A stretch of DNA of 38,278 bases from NCBI GenBank assembly GCA_007117465.1, contig SKGK01000211.1, positions 1 through 38,278 on the forward strand, read 5' to 3'. Shown one piece after another: positions 872 to 34,065 of the stretch (positions within the stretch are counted from its first letter, which is position 1; every line of letters begins with the position of its first letter). The stretch comes from Clostridia bacterium (GTDB lineage Bacteria; Bacillota; Clostridia; SK-Y3). The position numbers and the translations under genes are program-made. The notes under the pieces were generated by a model that saw only the letters and a program-made list of their open reading frames with translations, was not told where the DNA came from and did not search any database.

Positions 872-992
872 TTATCCACATTATCCAATGCTGTTATCCA
901 CCAAACAATTGTTTTGTGGATATAATTTCTGTGGATAATGTGGATAAATTTGTGCATAACTTTATTTAGTCACTCTTTTAAGATGTGGACAA
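872..992. promoter_or_regulatory. Cluster of DnaA-box-like 9-mers
   Basis: Exact TTATNCACA at 872-880(+), 930-938(-), 939-947(-), 951-959(-); near matches at 881-889, 894-902(+), 915-923(-), 984-992(-). Confidence 0.8.
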
Positions 993-1498: not shown

Positions 1499-1565
1499 TG
1501 CCCTGGTTGGAATTGAACCAACACCTCTGCTATCGCAGCGCTCTTACACATGAGCTACACAGGCA
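1499..1565 (-). pseudogene. Degenerate tRNA / tRNA-like sequence
   Basis: D-arm TAGCTCA..GAGC and T-arm GTTGG-TTCAATT-CCAAC plus GGGCA end, but the anticodon arm is only CTGC-GATA-GCAG and the acceptor stem is imperfect. Confidence 0.65.
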
Positions 1566-24718: not shown

Positions 24719-25600
24719 CTAATACACCATCGCTCTACTAATCATCATCGCACATTCAGCACGTGTAGCAGGACGGTCAATATCAAAATTATTATACGTA
24801 CTATCTTCTGTTTTTAGTATCCTCGCATCTAACATATTTTTTACACTTGCTTTTGCATAATGGTCTCGTACAGGAAGTTTTACATATACACCACCTTGGC
24901 CATGTGTATTAATTCGATACGCTCTATCTAACATAATTGCAACTTGTCCGATTGTAATCCTGTCTTCTGGTGCTATTGTTACATTATCATATCCTTGCAT
25001 AATACCATGATTGACCGCTGTCATCATTTCTCTCCTGGCCCAATGATTTTTAATATCCTCAAACTGCGTATCTCCCTCTTCTACCATTTCATATCCTAGT
25101 ACTCTTACTAGCATGGTAGCAAATTCTGCTCTTGAAATCGTGTTGCTTGGTCTGAAAGTGCCATCTGCATAGCCCTCGATAAATCCCGCATCATGAAGAT
25201 GGCGAATATACCTTTCGCTTTCTATTCTTTCAATATCATTAAAGGGTATGGCATTTTCCTGCTGTACATTATATAATATAATGCGTACAGGATGCTGCTC
25301 ATTCGGATTCGGAATTCCTCTTAGACTAATATCAATTTTATTGCGTTCGGGATGCGCTGTCTCTCTATAAAATATTCTCACCGTTTTATTGCCATGAGAA
25401 ATACTATAAGATGTAATTTCCAAATGATTGTCTACGCTTTCTTCTCTTAGGAATGCGCTTACACTAATTGTATATTTATCTGTTCTCTCCGTCGTATATA
25501 TTACACGCTCTCCTACTGCCAATACGGCATTACATAAAATCAGCATCATTATTAAAACCAAAACACTTACTCTTCTAAACAAAAAATCGACCCCTTCCAA
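24719..25600 (-). CDS. Secreted protein with three C-terminal SLH domains
   Basis: Signal peptide; HDAGFIEGYADGTFRPSNTISRAEFATMLVRVLGY, FEDIKNHWARREMMTAVNHGIMQGYDNVTIAPEDRITIGQVAIMLDRAY, FDIDRPATRAECAMMISRAMVY. Confidence 0.88.
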   Translation of the reverse strand: MEGVDFLFRRVSVLVLIMMLILCNAVLAVGERVIYTTERTDKYTISVSAFLREESVDNHLEITSYSISHGNKTVRIFYRETAHPERNKIDISLRGIPNPNEQHPVRIILYNVQQENAIPFNDIERIESERYIRHLHDAGFIEGYADGTFRPSNTISRAEFATMLVRVLGYEMVEEGDTQFEDIKNHWARREMMTAVNHGIMQGYDNVTIAPEDRITIGQVAIMLDRAYRINTHGQGGVYVKLPVRDHYAKASVKNMLDARILKTEDSTYNNFDIDRPATRAECAMMISRAMVY

Positions 25601-25607
25601 TTTTTCC

Positions 25608-28600
25608 CTAAATCTCCCCTATCGCTTCTAATGTCCGTCTTAGCATTGCAATTACTTCTGCACGCGTTACATTTTCTGAAGGTTCTAGCATGGTATCAGA
25701 TTTTCCAATAATAATGCCTTTATATGCTGCAAATTCAAGCGCTGTTCGATATCGCGAACTAATCCTTTCGGCATCTTCAAACTGTACAATCGGAATATTA
25801 ACATCCTCTACCTTTTCACCCATTTTAATCTCATATAATCTTACTAGCATTGAAATTGCTTCTTGCCTTGAAATATACTCTTGATGTGGCACTAGCTGTA
25901 ATAATCCTGCTTTTAGTGCTGTATCCATGTAAGTATTCTCACTATAATCTACTGCTAACACATCAAACACGATTTTAACACAATCTTCTACTGTAATTGC
26001 TCTTTCAGGGTAAAAACTTTTTTGCTGCGAGCCTATGCTTTTAATATCATACTTTGAAAAAATCAACCGTATGTCTGATGCCGCCCAGTGAGACGAAACA
26101 TCATTAAATCTCCATTGGGAGTTTGTAGCCGCAATCCCTATCCCACCTGTTGTATTACTTTCAAATGTCACGAGTGCATCTTGCTCGCCTACCCTAAAAC
26201 GGTAATCCCCTTCTAAGGTTGTCCACCTAGAAATGAAACCTAATTGCTTGGTAGTAAGCGGCTGAATCTCTACACCAAATTCAGTATAGAAACTACTATA
26301 TGTCTTCGTTATGGTAAGCGGTCTTTGCAATGTTTGTAATGCAATACTCGTGTTTCCTGCTTTTAACACCACCTCGACTTGCGTCATTCTAAGTGCGGTG
26401 GTATTTGCTACATTAAAGAAAGTTGTTGATGTCACGTCTGTAAAAATAAGATCGACTACTACTTCTTCGGCATTGCTAAAATATTTTGATATCTCAGGTA
26501 CATCTAATACGTCCGGTCGTATAACAAACCTAGCCCCTTCACCTATATCAATAATTAGATTTTCTTTTGCTTGCGAAAGTCCTGCAAAAACTTTGTACGC
26601 CACACTTATGCGTCTAGAACTTATGCGCCCAAAAGAAGAATGTGGTATACGCATATCAATTACATAATCTAAGTATCGATCCGTATACATGTCTTCTAAA
26701 AATCGATCAGCATTAATGCCAATAATCTCTTTATACCATTCGCCTGTCCTGCGATTATATCCATCTTCAATAATCGGTCCTGTTATCACCGTTTCTCTAT
26801 CAGTGTCAGTATCATAATCATCTTCACTCCGCAGCGTTCTTACCGATACCGTGTGTGTGGGATAAGATATTAGACCTGTTTCTTTATGTACGGCATAAAG
26901 CCTTGCATAATATCTTACGTTAGAGGACAACCCTCCTACTCTATACTCCCAATCATCACGGATATCAATGCGCCTCGCCCCTTCGTACTCCGAATTGGTT
27001 GCAATTTCAATCATATAACTTACTTCTTGCGTACTTTGATTCCACTCATACGTAATATAATCTTTTCCAATTGCATCAGCTGCATTTTTGATACCAAAAC
27101 CCGTTGGGGAATCTGGCGCTATATATACCGTTGTTTTAACAAGTCTAGAATCACTCCAATCAGAAGTTTTTACTTCGTCTCTGTCATTGGATACCTCAGC
27201 GCGAATCCAAAAATAATATGGTGTATCAGCCTCTAAATTCCTCACTAAATAGACATTGGTGGTGTCAAAATAACTTGCTGGAATCTCAACTTCTCCACCT
27301 GCCGTTTGGATATTATCTTGCGTAGACCACTTAAGGTAATACGTATACGTTAATCCATAGCGTTCTGCCGTTCTATCCCATGCTAGTTCAATACCTTCGT
27401 TGTTATCTCTTGCAACTGCTCTCGTCCAGCGAGGTACAGCAGGTTTTTCTAGGGGAACCGTATAATCTACATCCGTTGTGATAATAACTGGGTCAGAAGG
27501 CTCTGACATTTCATCTATATTGCGATACGCTCTTAACCAGATAATATACATCTTATTGGGCATTAAATCCTCAATGGTATATTCCATCAACTCATGACTA
27601 TCCCCATAAGGATTCTCTATACCCATAATCTGTAGCGGCTTTTCGCGAATTTCACTATAATCTGTCATATCCTCTTCAAATAACATATATCCAATAGCAA
27701 ATTGCACATCTGTATCATACTGTATTTCTCTATAGACATTATTTTGTACGCTTTGATCGTACGCTTCACTATATACCCACTCTCCTGTTTGCTCATCCTT
27801 AATTTCCATCCATCCTGTACGCCACTCTACCGTTGCCGAAGTCTTATCTACATATAAATTCCCTTGCAAATCCTCTTTAACCCGAAATGGTGGCTTAGAG
27901 GGCGATACAGGCACACTAATGTCACCTGAATCCGTCAATACCATCTCTACTGCTGGGTCAGAATAATAATAAGCATGCTGTATTTGTCCATCTATGTTAA
28001 TTATAAATCTTTTTTTAGCAACTGCTTTAATATAATATACAGTATTATGAGAAAGTCCTTCAAATTCGTACTGATAGGCAACAACATTTTGCGTAGAAGT
28101 TTCTCCTATCTTTTCATATACATAATGCTGCTGTTGTGGCTGAAAATCCGTAATGGTAGGCGGTATTTGAGGATTATAAAGTTCTGTTGGGTCAGTTGTA
28201 ATCCAAAAGTCATAGTAAATACTCTCATCTCTTGTTCCTTCAGCATCTTTGGGCGCATACCATAGCATTTTTATACGGTCATGCCCAATCTCCATCTGGA
28301 CATCATTATTTTCTGGGATACTATACCTAAAGTCAGGCACTGCCGGCGCATACGGTACTTGTGAAAGATACGCACCTAACTCATCTGATTCAATATACAA
28401 ACGATTACCATATTCATCGTATTCATCTTGTAACCACACCCGCACTCTATATTTAAATTTCTCTTCTTCACCATTATATACTTTGATATACCGTATAACA
28501 TCTTTTTGTCCACCTATACTTCTCCACAAATCCCCTTGCTCTTGTTGCATGATGATATATTCTGTTTCTTCTGTTCCACTTACACTAGAAGTAACGCGCT

Positions 28601-29447
28601 GCCATTCCATCTTCCAAATATCGTAATTGGCTCCTGCTGATACGCGTGTCATGGTAGCTGGAATATAAGTATATCCAATTGAGATCTTCGCCTGAGGTGC
28701 TACAACAACTCTACTATCATAAACTACTGGCTCTATCTTTACATAATAAACCGTACCTGGCCTTCTATTTCTAGAAACATACGATAACTTATTATTCCCT
28801 GTGGGTTTTACTGCTGCTGATGGTCCTATGTCTTGTGGGGAAACTTCGATAGGACTTGTGGTTGCAAAATCTCTACTTTGAGAAATATAAATGCGATATC
28901 CTATATGCTGATTATTGTACCTGACATCATCCCATACAATTTCAATCTCCTCAATTCCTGCCGGGTATACGTTAAGATCTACACCCGTTAAAAACATCAC
29001 TTCATCATCTGGCTGCCTTAAAGAAGTATGCGTTTGCCCTGGGTAGTCAGGATCATTATCCGGATGGATATGCCCCGCGTTGGCATACACATGATAAACC
29101 GTTCCCGAATCAAGCTGTGTAAGCCTTGTCTGCGTCGTACCTTCTGAAAGAGAAGGACCATATTTTTGGAATGTTTCACCATTTTTCTTGTAAAACACAT
29201 TATAGTGCCTACTGATACCATCAAATACAACCGGTTCCCAGTCCACATTTACATAATGTCCTCTAGTTTGTGGACTAGCATCATACCCTATTGATGGATT
29301 TCCATTAATCTCTCTTACGCTTATGTTTTTAGGATGTTCCTGCACTGTTGCAAACACTACCTGAGAAAGGGGAATGCTTTGTAGTAATATCATTAACATA
29401 ACAGCCCATACTATTTTCTTTTTCATCTGATTTCCCCCTTTACTCAA
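25608..29447 (-). CDS. Giant secreted protein, multiple FN3-like repeats with C-terminal SLH domains
   Basis: 1279 aa; signal peptide; recurring W..../Y..Y(I/V)...../L.....Y...(I/V)RA FN3 pattern; C-terminal FNDVSSHWAASDIRLIFSKYDI and NVTRAEVIAMLRRTLEAIG. Confidence 0.85.
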   Translation of the reverse strand: MSKGGNQMKKKIVWAVMLMILLQSIPLSQVVFATVQEHPKNISVREINGNPSIGYDASPQTRGHYVNVDWEPVVFDGISRHYNVFYKKNGETFQKYGPSLSEGTTQTRLTQLDSGTVYHVYANAGHIHPDNDPDYPGQTHTSLRQPDDEVMFLTGVDLNVYPAGIEEIEIVWDDVRYNNQHIGYRIYISQSRDFATTSPIEVSPQDIGPSAAVKPTGNNKLSYVSRNRRPGTVYYVKIEPVVYDSRVVVAPQAKISIGYTYIPATMTRVSAGANYDIWKMEWQRVTSSVSGTEETEYIIMQQEQGDLWRSIGGQKDVIRYIKVYNGEEEKFKYRVRVWLQDEYDEYGNRLYIESDELGAYLSQVPYAPAVPDFRYSIPENNDVQMEIGHDRIKMLWYAPKDAEGTRDESIYYDFWITTDPTELYNPQIPPTITDFQPQQQHYVYEKIGETSTQNVVAYQYEFEGLSHNTVYYIKAVAKKRFIINIDGQIQHAYYYSDPAVEMVLTDSGDISVPVSPSKPPFRVKEDLQGNLYVDKTSATVEWRTGWMEIKDEQTGEWVYSEAYDQSVQNNVYREIQYDTDVQFAIGYMLFEEDMTDYSEIREKPLQIMGIENPYGDSHELMEYTIEDLMPNKMYIIWLRAYRNIDEMSEPSDPVIITTDVDYTVPLEKPAVPRWTRAVARDNNEGIELAWDRTAERYGLTYTYYLKWSTQDNIQTAGGEVEIPASYFDTTNVYLVRNLEADTPYYFWIRAEVSNDRDEVKTSDWSDSRLVKTTVYIAPDSPTGFGIKNAADAIGKDYITYEWNQSTQEVSYMIEIATNSEYEGARRIDIRDDWEYRVGGLSSNVRYYARLYAVHKETGLISYPTHTVSVRTLRSEDDYDTDTDRETVITGPIIEDGYNRRTGEWYKEIIGINADRFLEDMYTDRYLDYVIDMRIPHSSFGRISSRRISVAYKVFAGLSQAKENLIIDIGEGARFVIRPDVLDVPEISKYFSNAEEVVVDLIFTDVTSTTFFNVANTTALRMTQVEVVLKAGNTSIALQTLQRPLTITKTYSSFYTEFGVEIQPLTTKQLGFISRWTTLEGDYRFRVGEQDALVTFESNTTGGIGIAATNSQWRFNDVSSHWAASDIRLIFSKYDIKSIGSQQKSFYPERAITVEDCVKIVFDVLAVDYSENTYMDTALKAGLLQLVPHQEYISRQEAISMLVRLYEIKMGEKVEDVNIPIVQFEDAERISSRYRTALEFAAYKGIIIGKSDTMLEPSENVTRAEVIAMLRRTLEAIGEI

Positions 29448-32400
29448 TCTCTAATTTATCTAATATTCGTTTTAACATAACAATATATGTTGCGCGTGTT
29501 ATCTCTTGCTTAGGTCTAAAACGCTGGTTTTCTGTCTTTAGTATTTGCATATCCACACTTAGCCTTACGGCTTTTAGTAAATGTGCTCTGATATGTTGTT
29601 CATCTGTTATAATAACATTTCTAGAAGGAATTAGGTCATCTATATTGGTATGTGTATATAAAGTATACAGCTGCATCCCCATAAACGCTGCCTGCTCTTT
29701 TATTAAGCTATCTTGCAAACGATTTAAATTCAACGCTTTATCTAAGCCATATGCTTTGGCACGAATGGCAATATTAGGATTATAAGACGGCTTTCGATAC
29801 TGCTCAGCTACTCTCTCAAAAATCAGTATTGCCTCTTGTATTGTAATCGCTTCATTAGGTCTAAAATAAGCACTAACTGCTAAAATTGCTGCTAAATCAT
29901 ATCGATTAATCATATATTGTAGTTCCTCTTGATACTCATGTCCTGGTAAATCAAAAAACATTGAGGTTGTTTTGATAGCCGCTAGTTTAATACCATCTAT
30001 TTGATTAATTTCGCAGCGACTGATTTGCTGTACTATATGATTTTGACCCAGTAGCTTCACCCAATTACGACCACTCCCTATTATTTTATGTGGTGCTATT
30101 GATGCATTGGTATCCATAGTATTGTGGCGGTAATTTAATTGTGCTAAAAGTGGGCGCGGAATATCTTTTAGGGTGCTTGCATACTTAATATAGTTTCTGC
30201 TTTCAATTATTTCTTTGATATATTGCCCTAACTCTCTTTCAATTTCATCAAGTAGCCTCTCCACTTCTTTTTCCGTCTCTGTAAGCTCTGGATTAATGCT
30301 TTCAAGTTCTCTTCTCTTTTCATAAATGAGTCCACTCGTACCTGCTGTGCCATCTTTTCCATATAACATATCATGGATACGCTGTTCAAATTCATCATCT
30401 GTAATACCAAAAGCTTTAGTAACACCTTTTAATGAAGTAATATCTGATACTAGTGCCCTCCCCTGCGCTGGGCGATAGGCTGAACTATCTTTCAAATCTT
30501 CTAACGTAATCGCTACATATACATCTTCTACCGATGATTGATTTTCCTTTCTTGCCATCATCTCAGTAATAGATGCTGTTCGATGCACATCTAATACCCC
30601 TGGCCTAAAAATAAAATCTCCATTTAATGTAGATAATACTAACGTTTTTCCTGTCTCATCTAATACTTCAATGAGCTTTACAGGTATATCTACTGTAAAT
30701 GCTGCTCTTTTGTGCGTTGCTTTTTCTTGTGCTTTAGTAAAATCAATGACAAACTCTGGCTGCCCATCATTGCGAAGATAGTGAATTGTCTTACTTGCTC
30801 TCATTTTTATACGATAGTATATACTATCTGAACGTTCTATATCTTCATATACCCAATATAATGTATCTCTATAACGATTAATGCTATCTAAGAAAACAGC
30901 ATCATTATCATGCTTACGTTCTTCTTCTTCATAATCTTCAGCACTAAATTCAGTACGTGCAGATATGGTGCCTGTATATTTAGATACAGTATCCCCTCCT
31001 ACATCTACTGTTCGTATTTTTATATAATATCTTGTATTAGAGCCTAGACCCGTAATATATGCACTATACCACTCGTAATTTGTACCAAGCAGATTGGTGG
31101 TTTGCCAACGCTCCATATTGCGAGTACTTATATCGCTATACTGAGTACCCGTTCTTATTTCTCTATAATCTTCTTCATCTTCTGCACGAATCGCAATTTC
31201 ATATTGATACTGCACCTGTCCTTCTTGATTAAGATGTTTTAGACCTCTCCACGTTATTTTAAGTTCATGATAGATGTTAAAATTACCATGCGTAAAATCA
31301 TCCTCCTCCGCTTCTAATACAGATAGTAATGTTGGTGGCTCTAATATCAATGTGGTTACGGGTACTGTTATCCACTCTGAATACAAAACCGTATCTTCTT
31401 CGCCCTCTTCTGGTAGTACCGTTCTCTTTGCACGAATACTAAAAAAGTATACCGTATTGGCTTGTAGCTCTGCTGCTTCAAATATAAAGTTTTTGTTCTG
31501 TACATTATAAGCATCTAATATATCAGCATGTTCAAAGACATACGGTTTGTACTGTGCCTCATCTAAGGTTGCAGGATCCCCATTCCAGTCTACTGCATTT
31601 TCAATTGAAACCTCTGTCCGAAGCAATTCATATTCTATTTGTGCATTTGGATAAATTGCCCCTAGTGGCGTATTGTTATCACGCCAAGTTAAAAATGCAC
31701 GATAACTCTCCACCATTAAGTTGCCATCTGCATCTTTTGCCACTGCAAAATCATCTGGTGCTAATGGATGTTTTTCACCATCACCAGGCCCTTCTATTCC
31801 TTTACGAAGCGTAGTAGCACTAAGTGTCTGGGAATACGCAGAGTATTTAGGTTCTTCACCGTCTACCTCTATCTTGGTACGCACAATCATATAATATGTA
31901 GTATTGGCCTCTAAAGGCTTTTGTAGATATTGTGGATCATCACCATTAATTCGGGCTTCTCTTTTTCTGCCTTGGTCATAAGTTGAAAATTCAATGAGTG
32001 GATTATCACTATCAATATCTACTTCTTCAATTGTCCCATCATGCGAACGGATTAACATTTTCCCATCACTAGTTACTTTATAAATCCATTCTTCAAAATC
32101 GCCATATTTCCCTGCACCATATTGCCCTAAATCCCCCGCTTCCACTTCTTCCCTATCTCTTTTTTTACTAACGGTTACTTCATAATGAACCGTCGGAAGC
32201 CCTTCTTCTTCGGGGAAATAATCTCCTGCTCGTATGTCTACTCGCCCCCATGCAAGTTTTGCATAATCTACACCTACTTCTTCCACATGTAAAAGCTGGG
32301 GAAGCGGCGGCTTATTTTCACGATACCGCGGCGTCGTAAATGCAATTGGCAGGGTATAGTTAGATGTCATGCTTGAATCTTGTTCTAATCGCTCTGTATA

Positions 32401-34065
32401 CATTTTCAAAAAGTATACTTTGTTTAGTAGCAATGTGTCGGGATAACCATTATTATCATCGCTCTCTTCAAATAATCCTTGTCCTCTAAATTCATACTCA
32501 ATTCTTTCTTTCCCAGTATATAGTTCTCCATCTCTTACTTGATTCGCATCAATCACTTTTAACCCTTCATTAGTAATCGAAACCCATTTTGCTTTTCTGT
32601 ATTTTATAGGATATTCTCCTAGCACTTCTCCTTTGTGGTTAGTAAGAATTTCTGTAATCGGTTGACCGATTTCATTATATAAGTCTTCAATTGCAGAATT
32701 AAGGAACAGATAATACCTATAATCTAGATTGTCACTTTGTTCTATCATCTGTTCATAATTGTCAGGTTTATCCCATCGTAGCGTAACAATAGGAACTTTA
32801 CTGTCTGCGTCTAATACGGTGCGAACTACTTCTAAATTTTCTGGCATTGGTGGCAACGTAGCTTCAACACCACTTAAGTTTACATGCAAAAGCTGTGACC
32901 TTAGTTCTATCGGAATCCCTTCTAACATCTCATCAGCTGTGGCCGTTACCATATAGTAGTTTAAAAAGTTTGCGGTATTCGCTAAAAAAGCTTCCACATA
33001 CTGCTCCGTAATGCCAGCAGAATCTTCTTCTCTTTCAAAATATGCACGTGTTAAATTATTTTGATCTGGCCCTACCCAAAATTCATATAAAAAATTTGGA
33101 AAAGCAACAAATGTACCATCATTTCTCACACGATATGCTGTCATCATGGCATTATTAGCACCATGTCTTTCTAATTTTACCTGCAAATAAGTAGTAATAA
33201 ATTCTTGCTGCAATTCACTTTCCACATATCGTGTATGCTCAAAATTTCCTTCACTAAAACGTGGATAGATTTGCATATAATAAATAGCACCTGCTCTTAG
33301 TGCACTTGGTTTTCCAATCCCACTATTATCATCTGCTTCTTTTGTCCACTCAAAGCGGATATTCTCATCCGTCACCTGAAGATTATAAAGACTAGAATCT
33401 ACTAACTCAAAACTATTGCCGCCCCAACGATTGAGCGTATAATTTCCATCTGCATACTCTATATAAAAGCGCTCTACTGTATCGGCAGTAGCTGATTTTG
33501 ATTTGCGCACATTAATTTCATAATCAACAGATTGAACGTATGACACAGGATCTGCCGCTTGTATTAGTCTATCCCATGAGACTCTAATCCCTGGATTCGT
33601 TCCGACTTCTGTCTGGTTTTCTGTAATGGTCTCATTGATGCGAAAAGCATTAAAGTTGGTAACGCGTGTGATTGCTTGTACCTTATATATATTACTATCT
33701 GTGGTTAATTCATCATCGGCTACATCATATGCCCTAAGTATAAATGTATATACATAGCCTGGCAACAAATTCGTAACTTCATATTGCATCAAACTAACAT
33801 CTTGTGCCTCTATACGTTCTAGCTCTATGAATTCACCTTGCGCATTATAATATGCGATTTGATATTCAGCAGCATTAATAATGCGACTCCATTCTAATGT
33901 CACAGCATTACTCTTAATAAGGTATTTTTGCTGCTGTCTTGCAACGCGTAGCACATTTTCTTCTTGCGCTTCTCCTTGTGGTACATACCAACCCAATGTA
34001 ATAACAAATACCATTAATACGCATAACGCCATTATCTTTCTATATTTATACATACATGCGTTCAC
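29440..34065 (-). CDS. Giant secreted protein, multiple FN3-like repeats with degenerate C-terminal SLH domains
   Basis: 1541 aa; signal peptide MYKYRKIMALCVLMVFVITLGWYVPQGEAQ; FN3 pattern; C-terminal AYFRPNEAITIQEAILIFERV and QRFRPKQEITRATYIVMLKRIL. Confidence 0.82.
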   Translation of the reverse strand: MNACMYKYRKIMALCVLMVFVITLGWYVPQGEAQEENVLRVARQQQKYLIKSNAVTLEWSRIINAAEYQIAYYNAQGEFIELERIEAQDVSLMQYEVTNLLPGYVYTFILRAYDVADDELTTDSNIYKVQAITRVTNFNAFRINETITENQTEVGTNPGIRVSWDRLIQAADPVSYVQSVDYEINVRKSKSATADTVERFYIEYADGNYTLNRWGGNSFELVDSSLYNLQVTDENIRFEWTKEADDNSGIGKPSALRAGAIYYMQIYPRFSEGNFEHTRYVESELQQEFITTYLQVKLERHGANNAMMTAYRVRNDGTFVAFPNFLYEFWVGPDQNNLTRAYFEREEDSAGITEQYVEAFLANTANFLNYYMVTATADEMLEGIPIELRSQLLHVNLSGVEATLPPMPENLEVVRTVLDADSKVPIVTLRWDKPDNYEQMIEQSDNLDYRYYLFLNSAIEDLYNEIGQPITEILTNHKGEVLGEYPIKYRKAKWVSITNEGLKVIDANQVRDGELYTGKERIEYEFRGQGLFEESDDNNGYPDTLLLNKVYFLKMYTERLEQDSSMTSNYTLPIAFTTPRYRENKPPLPQLLHVEEVGVDYAKLAWGRVDIRAGDYFPEEEGLPTVHYEVTVSKKRDREEVEAGDLGQYGAGKYGDFEEWIYKVTSDGKMLIRSHDGTIEEVDIDSDNPLIEFSTYDQGRKREARINGDDPQYLQKPLEANTTYYMIVRTKIEVDGEEPKYSAYSQTLSATTLRKGIEGPGDGEKHPLAPDDFAVAKDADGNLMVESYRAFLTWRDNNTPLGAIYPNAQIEYELLRTEVSIENAVDWNGDPATLDEAQYKPYVFEHADILDAYNVQNKNFIFEAAELQANTVYFFSIRAKRTVLPEEGEEDTVLYSEWITVPVTTLILEPPTLLSVLEAEEDDFTHGNFNIYHELKITWRGLKHLNQEGQVQYQYEIAIRAEDEEDYREIRTGTQYSDISTRNMERWQTTNLLGTNYEWYSAYITGLGSNTRYYIKIRTVDVGGDTVSKYTGTISARTEFSAEDYEEEERKHDNDAVFLDSINRYRDTLYWVYEDIERSDSIYYRIKMRASKTIHYLRNDGQPEFVIDFTKAQEKATHKRAAFTVDIPVKLIEVLDETGKTLVLSTLNGDFIFRPGVLDVHRTASITEMMARKENQSSVEDVYVAITLEDLKDSSAYRPAQGRALVSDITSLKGVTKAFGITDDEFEQRIHDMLYGKDGTAGTSGLIYEKRRELESINPELTETEKEVERLLDEIERELGQYIKEIIESRNYIKYASTLKDIPRPLLAQLNYRHNTMDTNASIAPHKIIGSGRNWVKLLGQNHIVQQISRCEINQIDGIKLAAIKTTSMFFDLPGHEYQEELQYMINRYDLAAILAVSAYFRPNEAITIQEAILIFERVAEQYRKPSYNPNIAIRAKAYGLDKALNLNRLQDSLIKEQAAFMGMQLYTLYTHTNIDDLIPSRNVIITDEQHIRAHLLKAVRLSVDMQILKTENQRFRPKQEITRATYIVMLKRILDKLEIE

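Follow-up and report, generated by a model that had tools for sequence, protein, structure and literature searches.

A conserved DnaA-box cluster outside the replication origin in Clostridia, with a probable role in holding DnaA

A dense cluster of DnaA boxes located beside sigH probably serves as an off-origin chromosomal site that binds DnaA and holds it away from oriC, and that has been retained in one family and in much of Clostridia. DnaA is the protein that starts DNA replication. The cluster occupies positions 872–992 of the window, the whole stretch of 38,278 nucleotides that was analysed, which is one entire contig of a MAG (1.77 Mb in 215 contigs, 61% complete). Its boxes are clustered non-randomly, the element is conserved in both sequence and place, and the hallmarks of an origin are missing from it; binding of DnaA, its titration, and binding of LexA at the element are what we infer. 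Off-origin DnaA clusters are already known in B. subtilis, E. coli and Streptomyces. In the literature searched, whose coverage was incomplete, on DnaA clusters near hpf or in Clostridia and on LexA together with DnaA boxes in Clostridia, this site was undescribed, and no off-origin DnaA cluster conserved in sequence and place across Clostridia was found. The element occurs in diverse, partly culturable genera, which makes the old titration question testable by a small deletion.

The box scan of 872–992 against TTATNCACA, allowing one mismatch, found seven DnaA boxes, of which four were exact (872(+), 930(-), 939(-) and 951(-)) and three had one mismatch (894(+), 915(-) and 984(-)). The initial annotation had counted eight boxes in these 121 bp; seven of them reach this threshold and the eighth, probably TTATCCAAT at 881–889 with two mismatches, does not. 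Its four exact boxes were all recovered, as were the gapless adjacency of 930–938 and 939–947, the third box 3 bp further on, and the orientation of the boxes at 872 and 894, which is opposite to that of the core boxes. The exact box TTATCCACA (872–880, +) forms the left edge of the block conserved in the alignment. It is followed by a LexA/SOS-box-like palindrome, AAACAATTGTTT (RAAC-N4-GTTY; 903–914), located 27 bp 5' of the core, with the DnaA-box-like sequences TTATCCACC (894–902, +) and ATATCCACA (915–923, -) as its left and right arms. The core consists of three exact minus-strand boxes seen in both the box scan and the alignment, namely TTATCCACA at 930–938, a second TTATCCACA abutting it at 939–947, and TTATGCACA at 951–959, the last being followed by a conserved CTT and also recovered by the pattern search. 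The core pattern used for searching, TGTGGANAATGTGNATAANNNTGTGNANAACTT, corresponds to 930–962 and has about 26 fixed bases. Further right, the DnaA-box-like TTGTCCACA (984–992, -) was present in all six family members, and the alignment showed a conserved tail, AGTTACCCCTCCTGTGTTATG (1006–1026, +), which reads GGTTACCCCTACAAAGTTATG in most family members.

Single DnaA boxes occurred at chance level across the whole window (64 observed versus 64.1 expected), and therefore only their clustering was out of the ordinary. Across 300 dinucleotide shuffles of the 38 kb, the count per 121 bp never exceeded four boxes with at most one mismatch or two exact boxes, versus seven and four in the real sequence, so that the density described earlier as origin-like was indeed beyond chance.

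Comparative analysis showed that the element is kept in all six family genomes compared. Exactly one core copy was found in each of six genomes from six genera, always beside the treble-clef zinc-finger gene zf_Tbcl and sigH, and the reversed pattern used as a control had no core match in these genomes. The box pair was located 0.5–0.95 kb downstream of sigH in all five of the other family genomes. In the six-genus alignment, the majority identity was about 0.90 over 905–965 and about 0.5 outside the element. The initial annotation had stressed the very AT-rich left flank; positions 745–870 are 79% AT versus 64% for the window, but this flank is not conserved and lies outside the conserved element, and in G001 another gene's stop codon lies only a few bases before the leftmost box.

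In the window, the conserved right-hand neighbours are zf_Tbcl (1194–1463, -; Pfam PF13451) and, identified by annotation and family comparison, the sigH-type sigma factor gene (1587–2237, -), followed by an rRNA methyltransferase gene and a homoserine dehydrogenase gene. To the left lies a 5' remnant of 63 codons (549–740, -) of a gene for an amino-acid ABC transporter substrate-binding protein (SBP), where the family genomes G003–G005 have both an SBP and a permease gene. The transporter operon is broken at 137–740 of the window, where the 63 SBP codons meet the 3' part of the ATPase gene and the permease gene is missing; either a deletion or an assembly join could account for this.

Between sigH and the zinc-finger gene, a weak tRNA-like match was observed at 1499–1564 (-), and ARAGORN found no tRNA in the window. 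Similar elements were located in relatives (L086 5320–5384, L087 6226–6299, L089 8496–8566 and L090 11142–11216). In the family genomes their D- and T-arm sequences are kept and the anticodon arm varies in length and sequence, with Rfam scores of 29–43 bits, and the element looks unable to decode normally.

The core was also widespread beyond the family. Among 147 Clostridia genomes, sampled as an even draw, a search allowing at most three mismatches found 51 core sites spread over 48 genomes and none for the reversed control. A lack of conservation in related genomes had been named in advance as evidence against the cluster, and what was found is the core in six of six family genomes and in these 48. 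It was located within 4 kb of hpf in 22 of the 48 carriers, beside sigH, zf_Tbcl or SBP in 12, and elsewhere in 14; half of 20 hpf-linked loci that were fetched also carried zf_Tbcl on the right. We infer that 34 of the 48 carriers sit at one ancestral locus with the order hpf, glnQ-permease-SBP, cluster, zf_Tbcl, (tRNA), sigH and rlmB. About two thirds of the 147 sampled genomes had no core match at up to three mismatches, and the site is therefore either dispensable there or diverged past detection. A scan of 84,980 species genomes gave at least 118 near-exact matches versus about 1e-4 expected in random sequence (from about 26 fixed bases, composition ignored), and among the matches listed nearly all were from Bacillota. 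The core was also found in Thermoanaerobacter, Paenibacillus and Thermoactinomycetaceae, the Lihuaxuella and Paenactinomyces copies being near SBP and those of Paenibacillus near hpf and secA; the evidence for Bacilli comprises the pattern scan and ten genomes reached through the loci.

The left neighbours of the element varied by lineage while the element itself persisted, and included SBP, an M20-type peptidase gene, hpf and V-ATPase genes. Among 50 loci with classifiable neighbours, the two flanking genes both ran on the strand opposite the motif (as written) in 31 and were convergent in five. Four of these five had a Blautia-type V-ATPase/NlpC arrangement, in which the element lies between two convergent 3' ends. 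The changing left neighbours and the convergent Blautia-type loci together indicated that no single flanking promoter accounts for the element.

Two other types of DnaA-box cluster were observed. A second recurrent element of the family, AACAACATATCCACAGAGTTATCCACA, which on the other strand reads as boxes followed by GTTGTTAAC-type repeats, is dispersed at several places per genome (L015 260–290 and 466–530, L016 963–1010, L091 around 11542, L092 around 4063 and L093 around 5420). A third type, TGTGGATAACTCTGTGGATAYTGTGGATTAYT, was located 10–17 kb from hpf in four family genomes (L094 4624–4815, L098 4593–4754, L100 4101–4238 and L101 4212–4367), where the core element had stayed with sigH.

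The initial annotation had offered a second or relocated origin as one option. As it reported, the genes on both sides of the cluster are mainly on the minus strand, and dnaA, dnaN and recF were not found among the annotated window genes. GC skew is negative on both sides. No dnaA was recovered anywhere in the 61% complete MAG, so that its absence from the window says little alone, and relatives were therefore used to place the cluster relative to the origin. In Petroclostridium sp. X23 (NZ_CP124862.1; G004), a complete genome of the same family that has this cluster too, the positions are 3.284 Mb for dnaA and 2.580 Mb for the cluster. GC skew samples near the cluster gave -0.16, -0.23 and -0.11, and the sign flips around dnaA (-0.20 at 3.13 Mb, +0.21 at 3.40 Mb); this check, suggested in the initial annotation, thus placed both dnaA and the skew change 0.70 Mb from the cluster. 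In the window, the skew is mostly negative and no switch was found at the cluster. In other complete genomes, the cluster was 0.61 Mb (T. wiegelii), 0.56 Mb (Pseudobacteroides), 0.24 Mb (Anaerotignum) and 0.12–0.13 Mb (two Paenibacillus) from dnaA.

The DnaA-trio is required for origin unwinding. In Petroclostridium, the dnaA-dnaN spacer contains boxes and then the run ACTTATTACTAATACTACTA, which is a DnaA-trio read on the other strand. We scored the trio as TA[AGT] units, since strict WAR scoring breaks runs at TAT units. Across 162 loci, six such units lay beside the core in all four dnaA-dnaN loci and no more than two in any of the 158 others, and the trio search beside the boxes that had been proposed earlier came out negative in the window, with a TA[AGT] run of 1 only. 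The four positive loci are the dnaA-dnaN spacers of four Clostridia MAGs (L110, L133, L192 and L221), which contain the same tandem-box core; in those genomes the core itself can therefore be origin DNA, and this is what speaks for an origin. The off-origin cores look like the box set of these four spacers minus the trio. No dnaA or dnaN adjoining the cluster was found in the window annotation or in the neighbour comparison of the family and hpf-linked loci. All these led us to reject the cluster as an origin: the trio needed for unwinding, a skew switch and adjoining dnaA or dnaN are missing, and Petroclostridium dnaA has its own box clusters and trio 0.70 Mb off. A second or relocated origin is thus very improbable, and densely packed DnaA boxes in a draft genome do not have to mark oriC.

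Another option of the initial annotation, that an integrated replicon (here considered as plasmid or phage) has left a remnant, is also not borne out, and we consider it extremely improbable. BLAST against plasmids and phages gave partial matches only, a few of them in phage or viral contigs, which is the evidence in its favour. Against this, the element is ancestral at a housekeeping locus, and its neighbourhood recurs across six genera and in distant members of Clostridia; rep, integrase and phage genes are absent from the annotated window genes; and the sole 'plasmid' match is partial, has no annotation beneath it and no marker genes nearby, and lies on a 2.6-Mb replicon. That replicon, NZ_CP154629.1 (L337), is a 2.63-Mb sequence of Acetoanaerobium noterae filed as a plasmid with four annotated features, and by its size it may be a misfiled chromosome.

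The element instead fits an off-origin DnaA-box cluster in the testable features, and it fails the tested origin features. The DnaA-titration or DnaA-binding cluster that the initial annotation listed among its options is the one that the results support, the element being off-origin, intergenic, positionally conserved and present as one core copy per family genome. DnaA would bind cooperatively to the three co-oriented core boxes, of which two abut and the third lies 3 bp away, as well as to the flanking boxes, and the bound DnaA would be kept away from oriC. Passage of the fork would duplicate the locus and double its copy number, free DnaA would drop after initiation, and re-initiation would be delayed. 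A weaker step is that the LexA-like operator, whose spacing from the core is fixed, may link how fully the site is occupied to the SOS response. Six DnaA-box clusters are described outside oriC in B. subtilis, and their joint removal led to early initiation (PMC5295017, PMC13220808). By analogy with these clusters, sequestration of DnaA that delays initiation, possibly tuned by LexA, is the most likely function. Further off-origin box clusters in Petroclostridium were located at about 2.14, 3.51, 3.65, 3.81, 4.37 and 4.70 Mb, roughly in the origin-proximal half, although some may be chance matches since the two-box pattern used had two matches in that genome with the reversed control. Several observations count against sequestration. 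In B. subtilis, the best-studied Bacillus, no main DnaA-binding region is at hpf or sigH (PMC4447404); about two thirds of the sampled Clostridia had no core match at up to three mismatches; and at some loci the cluster lies a few hundred bp upstream of hpf, where it may regulate locally.

DnaA-box clusters in B. subtilis double as transcriptional control sites (PMC4447404), and the two functions may be inseparable. DnaA might act here mainly as a transcription factor, with the element as an operator linking a neighbour gene (ancestrally hpf or the SBP operon, or possibly a small RNA gene that is unannotated) to replication status. In B. subtilis, most of the clusters are sites of gene repression or activation by DnaA (PMC4447404), uvrB, recN and dinJ of E. 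coli are jointly repressed by DnaA and LexA (PMC6015884), and at many loci SBP or hpf lies downstream of the cluster. Nevertheless, we find an operator rather unlikely, as the flanking gene varies by lineage while the element persists, the flanking genes are convergent at the four Blautia-type loci, and only a remnant of the SBP gene is left in the window beside an intact cluster. In addition, the best promoter-like site (TTGAAA-17-TATAAT, 11/12; 790–818, -), upstream of the SBP remnant, is outside the cluster, and an intrinsic-terminator-like hairpin (1087–1112, -) between the zinc-finger gene and the cluster would end transcription of that gene before it reaches the cluster, thereby shielding the other side. 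An element that alters the nucleotide state of DnaA, by datA-like ATP hydrolysis or DARS-like ADP release, in place of passive titration, seems improbable. Its boxes are ordered with conserved spacing and opposed flanking boxes, in E. coli the uvrB promoter has a LexA box that overlaps DARS1 (PMC6015884), and datA is located downstream of a tRNA-Gly operon (PMC10950094), as is the cluster in G002–G005; however, the resemblances to datA and DARS1 may each be coincidence. B. subtilis is without IHF and datA/DARS-type control is undescribed there (PMC13220808, PMC5295017), and the core boxes are co-oriented, whereas box I of DARS opposes boxes II and III (PMC5742627).

The palindrome was an unexpected lead: a single stretch of DNA may be the meeting point of the DNA-damage response and replication initiation. 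RAAC-N4-GTTY, a pattern picked after inspecting the first set of 118 listed loci, was found 5' of the core in 35 of these 118 where 3.4 would be expected, and nearly every site was at -27 or between -53 and -55. Out of 2304 four-base palindromes, AAAC-N4-GTTT ranked first in enrichment, with 24 loci versus 1.3 expected (nominal p 3e-22, an optimistic value since the 135 loci of this test, thinned for similarity, are still related). Among the 20 hpf-linked loci, which were fetched later, five had the site at -26 or -27 (nominal p 2e-13; two from one family). Control palindromes (CAAA-N4-TTTG, TTTG-N4-CAAA, GTTT-N4-AAAC and others) stayed near background, and AT-only palindromes showed a mild, diffuse enrichment, as expected for AT-rich spacers. 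The palindrome is kept in five of six family members and missing from G002.

The palindrome resembles a LexA (SOS) box. The LexA box of Clostridia is GAAC-N4-GTTY (PMC4234289), and the window palindrome, AAAC-N4-GTTT, departs from this consensus by an outer A on both halves. In 13 genomes checked, every recA box had GAAC in one half or both, GAAC-type boxes occur in the recA promoters and in most of the lexA promoters of the same or related genomes, and a minority of the 35 palindrome sites retain one consensus half (GAAC or GTTC). The lexA gene was found in G001–G005 and others. In T. wiegelii there was no LexA_DNA_bind match and the cluster has no palindrome; Anaerotignum has lexA and its cluster is also without the palindrome. 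We tentatively consider it possible that DnaA and LexA share the element as a composite chromosomal control site that is ancestral in Clostridia. LexA, bound at its fixed spacing from the core, would then modulate the DnaA load, and SOS induction would directly alter the capacity of the cell to initiate.

Among known systems, the DnaA-box clusters of B. subtilis are similar in having dense intergenic TTATNCACA boxes off oriC, several clusters per chromosome and a Bacillota host (PMC4447404; Okumura 2012 as cited in PMC5295017 and PMC13220808). The B. subtilis clusters are at sda, ywlC, ywcI, gcp, trmE and yydA, whereas the element here has a fixed three-box core that is deeply conserved in position, with a LexA-like palindrome at a set distance. 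The basal unwinding system of oriC shares the tandem-box core, through the four MAG spacers, but the off-origin core lacks a DnaA-trio, is 0.1–0.7 Mb from dnaA and has no skew switch. E. coli datA is likewise a non-coding intergenic DnaA-box locus downstream of tRNA-Gly genes (here in G002–G005), with a different box order. DARS1 in the uvrB promoter is also a small DnaA-box group with an adjacent or overlapping LexA box, matched here by the LexA-like palindrome; however, this element is not a uvrB promoter, and its boxes at 930, 939 and 951 share one orientation, in contrast to the opposition of DARS box I to boxes II and III (PMC5742627); opposed boxes do occur at 894 and 915. A cluster outside oriC in S. 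coelicolor, reported to repress untimely initiation (cited in PMC5742627), is similar by description only and is actinobacterial.

Far from the cluster, three successive minus-strand genes for surface-type proteins with S-layer homology and fibronectin type III domains were located at 24719–34065 of the window, and two of these proteins are very large (1279 and 1541 aa).
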